The notes under the pieces: model-generated | What the model saw: the letters and a program-made list of their open reading frames with translations, nothing else | What the model was told of the DNA's origin: nothing | Databases searched by the model: none | Shown: one piece after another, positions 12,967 through 58,370 of the stretch | Numbering within the stretch: position 1 is the stretch's first letter | Layout of the letters: each line of letters starts with the position of its first letter | Program-made: the position numbers and the translations under genes | Source of the DNA: Kiloniella sp. EL199 | GTDB taxonomy: Bacteria; Pseudomonadota; Alphaproteobacteria; Kiloniellales; Kiloniellaceae | Assembly: GCF_900313065.1 (NCBI RefSeq) | Contig: NZ_OMPU01000008.1 | Coordinates: 62,240-126,239, forward strand | Direction: 5' to 3' | DNA: 64,000 nucleotides

Positions 12967-13794
12967 GTGTGCCCTTTGTTTGAGAGAAGCCGTCAGTCGG
13001 TTTATCAATGGAGAGGTCGGATTGCAGAACGTCATCGTGTTTTATCCCCGGTCAAAGATCTGGTTCTTTACTGGCGTCGTTTTATGCCTCGAATTGGGAC
13101 GCGTAAGCTCTATCACCTGATCAAGTCTGAACTTGATACTCAGGGGATCAAGCTGGGGCGTGACGGGCTGTTCTCTTATTTGAAGAACGAGCGTTTATTG
13201 GTTCCTGTTCGCAGGAGTTACCAGAAAACGACACAGAGTAAGCACTGGCTCAGAAAACATCCTAACCTTTTGAAGGATCGTCAAGCGGATCAGATTGAAC
13301 AGGTCTTTGTGAGTGACATCACCTATCTCCAGAGTGATGAGGGAACACATTATCTGTCTCTGGTCACCGATGCCTATTCTCGAAAGATCATGGGCTATGA
13401 AGTCAGTAATGAAATGAAGACAAGCGATGTGATCAAGGCGTTGAAGATGGCAATGACACAGAGAAGAACAGATAAACCTGCTATTCATCATTCTGATCGC
13501 GGACTGCAATATTGTTCTGGTGAGTATCAAAAACTCCTAGCCCAACAAAAGATATCACCCTCTATGACAGATGGATATGATTGCTATCAGAATGCAATGG
13601 CTGAGAGAGTGAACGGGATCCTCAAACAAGAGTTCCTGCTCTATAAATGCAAAACCTTGGCTGAACTGAAGAAGCTGGTTGCTCAGTCCATTACAATATA
13701 CAATCAACTCAGACCGCACTTGAGCCTGGGTATGAAAACACCTGAACAGGTGCACAAAAAAGCCAGCTGCAATACACAGCTGGCTATAACTTAA
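12967..13794 (+). CDS. IS3-family transposase OrfB (DDE integrase core)
   Basis: Catalytic part of the transposase, 275 residues from a GTG at 12967, although the -1 frame is open further upstream and the working product is probably the OrfAB fusion. The rve-type catalytic triad is visible: the first Asp in VSDITYLQS, the second in HHSDRGLQY and the Glu in NAMAERVNGILK, followed by the usual IYNQLRPHLSLG ending. No internal stop or missing catalytic residue was seen, so it looks functional. Confidence 0.94.
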   Translation: MCPLFERSRQSVYQWRGRIAERHRVLSPVKDLVLYWRRFMPRIGTRKLYHLIKSELDTQGIKLGRDGLFSYLKNERLLVPVRRSYQKTTQSKHWLRKHPNLLKDRQADQIEQVFVSDITYLQSDEGTHYLSLVTDAYSRKIMGYEVSNEMKTSDVIKALKMAMTQRRTDKPAIHHSDRGLQYCSGEYQKLLAQQKISPSMTDGYDCYQNAMAERVNGILKQEFLLYKCKTLAELKKLVAQSITIYNQLRPHLSLGMKTPEQVHKKASCNTQLAIT

Positions 13795-54175: not shown

Positions 54176-54262
54176 GCGGCAATGGCGGAATTGGTAGACG
54201 CGCTAGCTTCAGGTGCTAGTTCCCTTCTGGGAGTGGAGGTTCAAGTCCTCTTTGCCGCACCA
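54176..54262 (+). tRNA. tRNA-Leu (anticodon CAG)
   Basis: 87 bases with CCA and long variable arm; acceptor GCGGCAA pairs with TTGCCGC; anticodon loop TTCAGGT between CTAGC and GCTAG. Accessory DNA begins right after it, a common island insertion point. Confidence 0.96.
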
Positions 54263-54380
54263 CATGTTTTCATGCAAGAAGTTGATCTTAAACAATAATA
54301 ATGTTCAATTGTTGTATGCACCTCTAGAGGACGTGAATCTGAAACTATTCCTGATTTGATAGAAAGTGCAGACAGAGTAA

Positions 54381-54413
54381 AAAAACATAATAAAACATAA
54401 TAAAACATAATAA
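54381..54413. repeat. Three-fold 10-bp tandem repeat
   Basis: (T/A)AAAACATAA repeated three times immediately ahead of the IS5 remnant's first usable ATG. Might be slippage debris at the broken 5' end of the element. Confidence 0.8.
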
Positions 54414-54787
54414 TGAGTCTTGATTTCGCCCTAAAAGGAATAACTGCATCTGACCGTATACGCTACAAATGGAACGCACTGGCAAAAAAAACTGGGGACA
54501 AGGGTTATGACAGTGATGAGTTCCGCGAAGCTCTCAGGGCAAAGAAAATAACGCCCTGTATCCCGCCGCGCTCAAACAGAAAGATCAAGCATCGTTATTC
54601 AAAGAAACTTTACAAACAAAGACATAAAGTTGAAAACATGTTTGCTAAACTCAAAGACTGGAGAAGAATTACAACACGATATGGCAAGTGTGCGCATACT
54701 TTCTTCTCGGCTATTTTGCATTGCGGCTTCCGTCATATTCTATCTCAAAGCATGAGTCCTGACCCTAGACAGCAGCAGACAACTTAA
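54413..54787 (+). pseudogene. IS5-family transposase remnant, C-terminal part only
   Basis: A 124-residue frame covering only the second half of an IS5 (IS427-group type) DDE transposase: DKGYDSDEFREAL, CIPPRSNRKIKHRY, then YKQRHKVENMFAKLKDWRRITTRYGK with the catalytic Glu and the closing FFSAILHCGFRHIL. The first catalytic aspartate region is missing, and the sequence ahead is an AT-rich tandem repeat, so the 5' end is deleted. A GAGTCCTGACCCTAG at 54754-54768 looks like the right inverted repeat; no left copy is present. Not mobile on its own. Confidence 0.88.
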
Positions 54788-55134: not shown

Positions 55135-56396
55135 CTATTTCTGTCGTTCCAAAATAAGTTTTACAAAGTCATTAATCGACCATATCCATTCCTGTTGTGA
55201 AGCTGTGTAGCTTTTTCTTATTTGCCCCGGAACAATTAACTGAACATCAGTCTGTTTCATTATTGCAGTTTGTGCTTCCGAAATAGCCGGTTCCAGCGTG
55301 ACAAGATGTTTTTGTTTGATCTTTTTGGCTTCCGGTAAAATTTGTGACCACCTGTCCTTACAGGATGACTTTGCTGCCAACATTGTCAGAAGTCCTGTAT
55401 CAAAAAATACATCTTCATATTCAGTTTTACCCGGAAAGATAAAGTCCGGTTTTTTTCCATTTTCAGTAATGATCTGAGGATCATATCGTACCTCAAATGC
55501 ATCAAAGACAGCTCCGAGGTGGTTTTGAAACGAATGCCCCATCCGTGATTTTCTTCGGTTCTGGACGCTCAGCGAGTATTTTATAAATGAGTCCACATCT
55601 GCCTCACCGCCCTTCATCCAGCCTTTGGATATATCGTTAGAAACAATCTTCTTTTCAAGGCGCCTGAACATGGCTTCTTCATGATCCAGCCATGTCAGCA
55701 AGGCAATATCCGGATCATCCCTTGCATCAAGTTCAGGAAGTGTAAGTCGCGCCAGATCAGAAAATGCTTTGGTTGATGGAAATTGATTTTCAAATCTTTC
55801 AATAATTGAATCAAGCGTATTGGCATTCGGATCTTCAAATTCAACACCTATTTCATCCAGAATAAAGCGTGCAGTAAAATCCAGTTTTGTGTCATCTGCT
55901 TTGGTTATCTCCTGTGCACCAAAGGGCAACTTGCTCTGCAAATTTAACCCAAAGAGCCATAGCAAGCCGCTTTCGATGGAATTATGTGCCGGTGTCACAA
56001 TAAACAGGATTGTCTCATCCCTTTGCCTCGCAATGAAAAGTCGATCGCCTTCATTCATCAATTCAGTTACAGCATTAGTTTGATAGTAAAGTCGCCATTC
56101 CGCGCTGCGATGAGATTGGTTAGCTCTTGTGTCATACCAAGAAAGAAAGCCGTCTTCTGTGATAGTCTCCTGTTCATCCAGAAGCCATATATATTTTGCA
56201 ACAAAACGATTATTGCCCTTGCGTTCGATATTACCCAAAACGCGCATCAGGGCTTCACCCTGTTGCCCATCACCAATTTCATGCTGGTTGGCCCATCACC
56301 AATTTCATGCTGGTTGGATTGTGCAGTTGCATCGACACGGGTCAGAATCTTGGTTCCTGCTCCGGTGAAGTATTGTGAAAGGTATCCCTGTTTCAT
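55135..56396 (-). pseudogene. EcoRII-type type II restriction endonuclease, frameshifted by a 26-bp tandem duplication
   Basis: Translation from ATG at 56396 gives [20 protein letters not shown] and then runs into a perfect 26-bp tandem duplication (56265-56290 and 56291-56316). Two copies shift the frame and reach a stop at about 56247; with one copy the frame continues as GDGQQGEALMRVLGN and on through 370 more residues to 55135, about 411 residues in all, close to the 404 of EcoRII. The C-terminal part has KPDFIFPG, LTMLAAKSSCKDRW and QLIVPGQIRKSY, as in the EcoRII catalytic family that cuts around CCWGG. ATGA overlap with vsr shows a shared operon. Could be reversible, or a reannealing artefact of assembly. 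Confidence 0.9.
56265..56316. repeat. Perfect 26-bp tandem duplication inside the restriction gene
   Basis: Two exact head-to-tail copies, 56265-56290 and 56291-56316, within the N-terminal codons of the endonuclease gene. 26 is not a multiple of three, so a single copy gives an open frame and two do not. Confidence 0.97.
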
Positions 56397-56845
56397 TGCC
56401 CTCTTATTTCCATCTTTTGCGCTTTTCCCGATAGCCATGTTTCGCATTCATCCAGAATATCATCTAGAGAAAGACGGGTTTTACCTTTCAGTGCGCACTC
56501 CCATATTATCCCGATTCTCCACCCCGCCGATAGTATTTGTTCCTCGACAATTCTATCGCGTTTAACGTTACCCAGTATTTTTGCTCTCCAGAACTCCTCC
56601 CGGCTTTTGGGCCATTTAAAAAGATGGCAATCGTGTTTATGCCAAAAACACCCGTGAACAAATATAACAGCATTATATTTTCTAAACACCAGATCCGGTT
56701 TTCCAGGGAAATCTTTTTTATGGATGCGATATCTAAAGCCTCTTTTATGCAGGCCACTTCGGATAACAAGCTCCAGTTTTGTGTTTTTTGAACGTATACC
56801 GGACATCATCCGGCTACGAACTTCTGGAGAGACGACGTCAGGCAC
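56393..56845 (-). CDS. vsr: Very short patch repair endonuclease
   Basis: Nicks 5' of T in T-G mismatches formed when 5-methylcytosine deaminates, protecting genomes that carry a cytosine methyltransferase. The 150-residue protein has [32 protein letters not shown] with the catalytic Asp, and [19 protein letters not shown] with the zinc/metal histidines and cysteine. It overlaps the methyltransferase gene by eight bases and the endonuclease gene by four (ATGA), so all three are coupled. Confidence 0.95.
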
Positions 56846-58091
56846 GCTTTTTCCTTAATTGAAGCTCTTGCTGAAACTGTTCTTGGTCTTGAACAGCAAG
56901 TGCTTTCTCAATATGTGGTTTCATAAGCTGAGCCACATCACGAACGACAGGAACAACAACAGCATTCCCGAACTGTCTGTATGCCTGGGTATCTGAAACC
57001 GGGATAATAAAATCCGAACTATCAGGTTTGTCAAAACCCATAAGGCGTGCGCATTCTCTGGGTGTTAATCTACGAGGCCTCTTCTTTCCCTGATTAATCA
57101 GGATTTCAGAACCATCCTTGTAATATCGTGCCGATAAGGTTCTTGTGACATCGTTTGAGTTAAAAAGCGAAAAACCGAATCCATTACCAGCTTTTTGGTG
57201 CTTCTTCTTGTAATTTTGCAAATATGCCCAGAGTTTTTCTGTCAATGTATATTTATCAGGTATGTCAGAGTCCAGTATATCGCCAAGTACAGGCTGGTCT
57301 GTTTCGGGGATTTCAAAATCATCAAAATCAAACAAGGACCGACTCCTGAAACCCACAATAAAAATTCTCTCCCGTTTCTGTGGAACCCATGGATGAGAGC
57401 TTATAACTTTTTTATGAACTTCATACCCGAGTTCTTTTTCCAAAACATGCATAATTGTTTTAAAGGTACGACCACCATCGTGGCGTTCAAGGTTTTTAAC
57501 ATTTTCAAGCAAAAAGACAGATGGTTTATGATGCTCAATAATTTTTGCAAGGTCATAAAACAGGGTACCCTGAGTGTCGCACATAAAGCCATGAGGTTTA
57601 CCAAGAGAGTTTTTCTTTGACACACCGGCGATTGAAAAAGGCTGACATGGAAACCCTGCAAGCAAAACGTCATGTTGTGGTATCAATTCGGGGTTTTCTG
57701 CATATGGTCTTATGTCTCCCGCAAATTGATGGCTTTCATCATCTTTGAAATTAGCTGCATAAGTCTCCCTGGCAAACCTGTCCCATTCAGCCGTGAAAAC
57801 ACATTGACCATCCAGTTCCTCGAAAGGAATTCTCAATCCACCAATGCCTGCAAACAAATCAATAAAGCGAAACTTTTTTTCAGATGTTTCATCTTGTCTA
57901 CATCTTTTCTCGATGTAGTCTCTTAATTTCTCAATAACCAGAACCGGAGGTTCAGATTGTGTTTTGTCTTTCGCTTCATATCTCCTGACAGTGCGTGCCG
58001 TCCTGCCAATAAGATTTGCTGTCTCGTCAATCGAGAGGCCAGCCTTTTCTCGCAGGGATAAAAATTCTGCACTGGATTCATTATGATACAT
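56838..58091 (-). CDS. dcm: DNA (cytosine-5-)-methyltransferase with N-terminal HTH, Dcm/M.EcoRII type
   Basis: Methylates C5 of cytosine; the pairing with an EcoRII-like nuclease suggests CCWGG. Start at 58091 gives 417 residues with [20 protein letters not shown]: residues 8-60 form an XRE-type helix-turn-helix ([18 protein letters not shown]) like those of M.EcoRII and M.SsoII, which repress their own promoter. Motif I is DLFAGIGG (about 78), catalytic Cys149 is in [11 protein letters not shown] (motif VI) lies in LLENVKN, then [11 protein letters not shown] and [10 protein letters not shown]. Further in-frame starts upstream are less likely. First gene of a leftward dcm-vsr-R operon. Confidence 0.94.
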
Positions 58092-58370
58092 ATCGTCTTT
58101 TCCGGGTTGTTTTTGGTCATAGTGTCCATTTTTTACCCAGCGTAACACGCAAAAAAAAGAACGTAAAGGGAACAATTGTGTTTGTCCTGAGGTAAAAAAC
58201 GGGAAGAAAATAAATACAAAAATGACTGATTAAAACGGAAATTCCCGAACCAGTGGGGTGTCTTTCAAAAGTTAATGTTTATGGCAGTGTCGAGCTTTTA
58301 ACTTGCTCTAAACTGCCAAGAGCAGCAGCTTAAATAAGGTACAGGCATCGAAATAATAGCAAGATTGGTG

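Follow-up and report, generated by a model that had tools for sequence, protein, structure and literature searches.

Does the EcoRII-like restriction gene of Kiloniella sp. EL199 still yield a restriction enzyme, has it been lost, or is it switched on and off? The gene, here called R, is the third of a minus-strand dcm-vsr-R operon, in which consecutive genes overlap. It lies in a stretch of 64,000 nucleotides (contig NZ_OMPU01000008.1, positions 62,240 to 126,239), which we refer to as the window. R has no single open full-length reading frame, but is split by a tandem duplication of 26 base pairs (bp) into pieces of 49 and 370 amino acids (aa). The explanation that we consider rather likely is that a horizontally acquired EcoRII-like system is in an early phase of restriction loss with modification kept. 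Replication slippage, as the simplest cause, would have produced the duplication, which shifted the frame inside the N-terminal effector domain of R; a full-length endonuclease would no longer be made, while the cell would retain its methyltransferase and its Vsr repair enzyme.

The elements of the split gene are the following:

56247..56396, minus strand: R fragment A, the N-terminal 49 aa of the restriction enzyme, from ATG 56396 to TGA 56249-56247
55135..56247, minus strand: R fragment B, 370 aa between ATG 56247 and a stop at 55135, with the EcoRII-C domain in residues 194-362
56265..56290, minus strand: 26-bp copy 1 (numbered on the plus strand), translated in frame with the 370-aa open reading frame (ORF)
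56291..56316, minus strand: 26-bp copy 2 (numbered on the plus strand), the earlier one on the coding strand, translated in frame with fragment A

The start codon of fragment A overlaps the vsr stop codon (ATGA), and fragment B is read in a different frame, which is open over 386 codons and gives 370 aa from ATG 56247. When the two pieces are compared separately with intact homologs, fragment A aligns to their first residues and fragment B to the remainder. The catalytic EcoRII-C domain (PF09019) is present in fragment B. The N-domain of R's subfamily, putatively a B3-like effector domain as in Type IIE enzymes, is not matched by Pfam EcoRII-N, but profile comparison and fold do match EcoRII. 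An earlier note on this DNA had described an EcoRII-type gene with its frame broken by a duplication and a stop soon after the start; the EcoRII-C match and the split frames support the former, and the stop indeed follows 49 aa after ATG 56396. Programmed -1 frameshifting between the two pieces is unlikely, since the zero frame of fragment A contains no X XXY YYZ heptamer.

The two copies, which the same note had reported, are directly adjacent and 100% identical, and Tandem Repeats Finder also calls the array (56265-56317, 100% matches, score 106). No other perfect tandem duplication with a period of 12-120 occurs in the window. When the sequence was shuffled 20 times under a first-order Markov model and searched at periods 12-40, the longest perfect tandem duplication was 15 bp and occurred in one shuffle. 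The copy at 56291-56316 encodes the NQHEIGD region, which aligns to the segment around residues 34-39 of the EcoRII effector domain in 1na6. As 26 is not a multiple of three, each of the two frames reads the NQHEIGDG stretch once.

The motif is present once in all 17 distinct homologs that cover the region (L003, L005-L016, L018, L061, L063 and L064; L060 is L008 again), and none of these 17 R genes contains a perfect tandem duplication with a period of 10-120. This indicates that the duplication is a private, derived change. The consistent single copy would, however, also be expected if the second one were an artefact of assembly or sequencing and the true genome single-copy, and the allele is known from one draft assembly only. 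We hold such an artefact to be very improbable. The genome (4.18 Mb in 19 contigs) is 99.88% complete with 0.14% contamination, and a perfect array of 52 bp fits within ordinary reads, so that assemblers seldom create one. Moreover, an artefact would leave unexplained the glutamine at a conserved catalytic position described below.

The first two genes of the operon are open:

56838..58091, minus strand: dcm-type cytosine-5 methyltransferase, 417 aa, start ATG 58091
56393..56845, minus strand: vsr, DNA mismatch endonuclease, 150 aa, GTG start, overlapping the end of dcm and the start of R

For both, the family matches span nearly the whole profile length. The methyltransferase carries the motifs of its family and scores 295.2 bits with TIGR00675 (cut-off 100.65) and 268.2 bits with PF00145; its N-terminus is helix-turn-helix-like, although this match is weak and under the Pfam cut-off. 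The earlier note's remark that the methyltransferase and Vsr genes look intact holds. The further proposal that restriction is lost and modification kept describes the likeliest outcome, with R split and dcm and vsr open, as read from the sequence: the cell would have lost restriction and would continue to methylate its DNA. That restriction should go before modification is understandable, because a cell that lost its methyltransferase first would have its chromosome exposed.

A second putative lesion lies in the catalytic domain:

55525..55527, minus strand: codon of Gln241 in fragment B, in the alignment column of Glu271 of EcoRII

Counted on the alignments, this column corresponds to Glu271 of EcoRII and Glu125 of Ecl18kI. 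Among the other distinct homologs with a residue at this position, 34 of 35 have Glu and one (L071) has Gly. The alignment has 46 rows; these 35 are left once both rows of the window are set aside, along with the three that lack a residue at this position (L018, L081, L082) and six that fetch the same place again (L060, L062, L078, L079, L004, L025). At the columns of D299, K324 and E337, each of the 44 rows that have a residue, the window's among them, shows the conserved one. According to PMC6344858, other CCGG-family enzymes conserve the Glu at position 70 of NgoMIV, which contacts the metal via water; PMC4652773 lists E92 of BsaWI among the residues that superpose on the NgoMIV active site. 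Judged by spacing and alignment, E271 of EcoRII is probably the equivalent of NgoMIV E70, that is, the conserved active-site Glu of the CCGG family. The Gln at this column suggests that catalysis was impaired earlier or is impaired now, so that a product read in frame throughout could still be weak or inactive; the enzyme is probably, though not certainly, impaired in this way, and the substitution may be a lesion independent of the duplication. The homolog with Gly, at 799-2028 of L071 (G755), is an open-frame R in a dcm-vsr-R operon and possibly an impaired or differently built enzyme.

Apart from these changes, R looks like its relatives. Of 105 columns that are invariant otherwise, fragment B departs at 3, and 11 other homologs depart at 1-5 of 103-107. 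The end branch of R (0.33) is similar to those of L005 (0.30), L006 (0.32) and the intact L007 of Parasphingorhabdus flavimaris (0.29). For dcm, the branch measures 0.30. Neither the counts at invariant columns nor the branch lengths revealed relaxed selection on R. The loss, whatever its extent, would therefore be recent.

The perfect, adjacent copies and the undecayed gene would also fit reversible phase variation, in which slipped pairing toggles R between an in-frame state with one copy and an out-of-frame state with two, while methylation is always on. Reversible spontaneous duplications inside pneumococcal capsule genes have been described (PMC4243769), and chance reversion through deletion of one copy by slippage is plausible here as well. 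However, we regard a dedicated switch, as the earlier note had proposed, as unlikely. The absence of a second copy or any tandem duplication from all 17 distinct homologs means that nothing points to selection for switching, and even when switched on, R would be impaired by the Gln at the E271 column. Furthermore, the phase-variable restriction-modification (R-M) systems treated in PMC12707154 and PMC9465063 use homopolymer or dinucleotide slippage or recombinases and are mostly of Type I or III. Our literature searches on tandem duplication and phase variation, phase-variable Type II restriction genes and RecA-independent deletion found no directly comparable restriction case, although one may still be in print. 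Positive support for a switch thus comes from the repeat and from the lack of decay in the gene, and from nothing further. Beyond the duplication, the simple repeats found in the operon are limited to A/T homopolymers of 7-8 nucleotides (T8 near 58158, A7 near 57880 and near 55456). The T8 run (coding strand, within 58150-58160) lies upstream of the dcm start codon; it is short, yet the longest simple run of the operon.

Several points weigh against early restriction loss. An undecayed R is also expected of a young switch. The E271 column admits an exception, the Gly in the open-frame operon, and Kpn2I is reported to tolerate Gln at a different active-site carboxylate (PMC6344858). The stop codon of fragment A and the ATG of fragment B overlap as TGATG, a feature absent from the earlier note, which had named a working product from another start as a reason to abandon its claim. 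Such an overlap opens the possibility that re-initiation yields R without its first approximately 41 residues, and a 370-aa product may be made in this way. Its catalytic domain is unchanged in the structure model and models equally well as in an intact homolog, while the B3-like effector domain misses its start. The ribosome-binding match of the ATG of fragment B (-3.9 kcal/mol) beats the first-quartile value of -3.3 among 178 AUGs on the minus strand.

R might accordingly be truncated instead of lost. By analogy to the isolated catalytic domain of EcoRII, a 370-aa enzyme without its effector-binding arm would cut ungated, which would turn a Type IIE-like into a Type IIP-like enzyme. We consider this improbable as well. 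Besides the Gln at the E271 column, a predicted hairpin beside ATG 56247 covers its weak ribosome-binding match, and no relative relies on a start of this kind alone. In the remaining half of the N-domain the model confidence falls (block means 49-83, compared to 72-91 in L005), which suggests that the 370-aa product may misfold. In a more specific form of this idea, the duplication removed the allosteric gate via TGATG in a single step that slippage could reverse, and the ungated enzyme was perhaps tolerated since the Gln slows cutting. A restriction enzyme would in this way have passed naturally from effector-gated to ungated in one step, but we think it quite unlikely. In any case, sequence alone does not justify calling a restriction gene dead when it is split and its stop overlaps a new start.

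Depletion of sites such as CCWGG would, following PMC4687349, be taken as the mark of a long-lived Type II system. The ratio of observed to expected (O/E) CCWGG sites is 0.52 over 400 kb of the host genome (G000, stretches L089-L108), compared to 1.06 for CCSGG, and 0.46 in the window. However, five relatives of the same genus without the operon (80 kb each, stretches L109-L128) are depleted, too, with ratios of 0.71 (G001), 0.77 (G002), 0.67 (G003), 0.55 (G004) and 0.51 (G007). The depletion hence does not stem from the operon alone, and we rejected CCWGG avoidance as a proof of lasting activity, as it is not diagnostic. GASTC (0.51) and GAWTC (0.53) are also depleted in the host genome and in most of the five relatives.

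The origin of the operon was approached by its distribution and its surroundings. Among 98 genomes, the host's own included, the only close relative of R was found in G093, which belongs to the same class (53%). Within the genus, G006 has a distant partial match to R (26%) and the best match to dcm among the eight other genomes (approximately 50%); the operon is otherwise absent from these eight relatives. The nearest named relatives of R come from other alphaproteobacteria, with 68% at best. On one side of the operon, the homology to relatives ends at a tRNA gene:

54176..54262, plus strand: tRNA-Leu(CAG), marking the edge of the lineage-specific segment in which the operon lies

For seven fetched genus relatives, homology ends at 54262-54265, the end of this gene, although two of the seven loci reach only a short way beyond it. 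The absence from genus relatives together with this stop indicates that the segment is lineage-specific and was probably acquired horizontally. The tRNA-Leu(CAG) site may form the edge of an island, but integration at this tRNA gene found no support in the window. The 3' end of the gene has no second copy elsewhere in the window, where the only other match (three mismatches) lies in the neighbouring tRNA-Leu, and no attachment repeat for the segment was found in the window.

Between tRNA-Leu(CAG) and R, a C-terminal piece of an IS5-type transposase (54413-54784, plus strand, 124 aa) is preceded by a tandem repeat of TAATAAAACA (3.6 copies, 54378-54413). This is probably the remnant of an insertion sequence (IS) at the edge of the acquired segment. 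Far from the operon, at 12967-13794 (plus strand), a 275-aa ORF was recognised by eye as resembling an IS3-type transposase. The transfer-messenger RNA (tmRNA) of the host genome is of the alpha type (272.7 bits); among 14 control genomes, only Caulobacter also matches, which places the host among the alphaproteobacteria.

If early restriction loss is the correct explanation, the locus would be a snapshot of the decay of an R-M system, in which a small duplication ends restriction first and the methyltransferase and its mismatch-repair partner persist. Whether restriction was lost or the gate removed, the allele is a concrete case that is easy to assay.

The closest known system is EcoRII (Type IIE, recognizing CCWGG; PDB 1na6, 3hqg, 3hqf) with M.EcoRII/Dcm. 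Compared to EcoRII, the N-domain of the window's subfamily escapes the Pfam EcoRII-N profile, though profile comparison and fold agree. The window's allele is split and carries Gln at the E271 column, and the system is known here from its sequence, with a predicted target. Orphan methyltransferases are described as deriving from R-M systems by loss of the restriction endonuclease (PMC9465063), and PMC12707154 describes the orphan class. As in these, a methyltransferase frame is kept next to a broken endonuclease gene, but the loss in the window would be at an early stage, since R is nearly complete and its selection unrelaxed. In the pneumococcal genes cap3A, cap8E and tts, a short tandem duplication inside an ORF likewise breaks the frame, and reversal and phenotype switching are reported for these capsule genes (PMC4243769). 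In contrast, the allele of the window is known from one sequence, and the gene affected encodes a restriction enzyme that may carry a second lesion.
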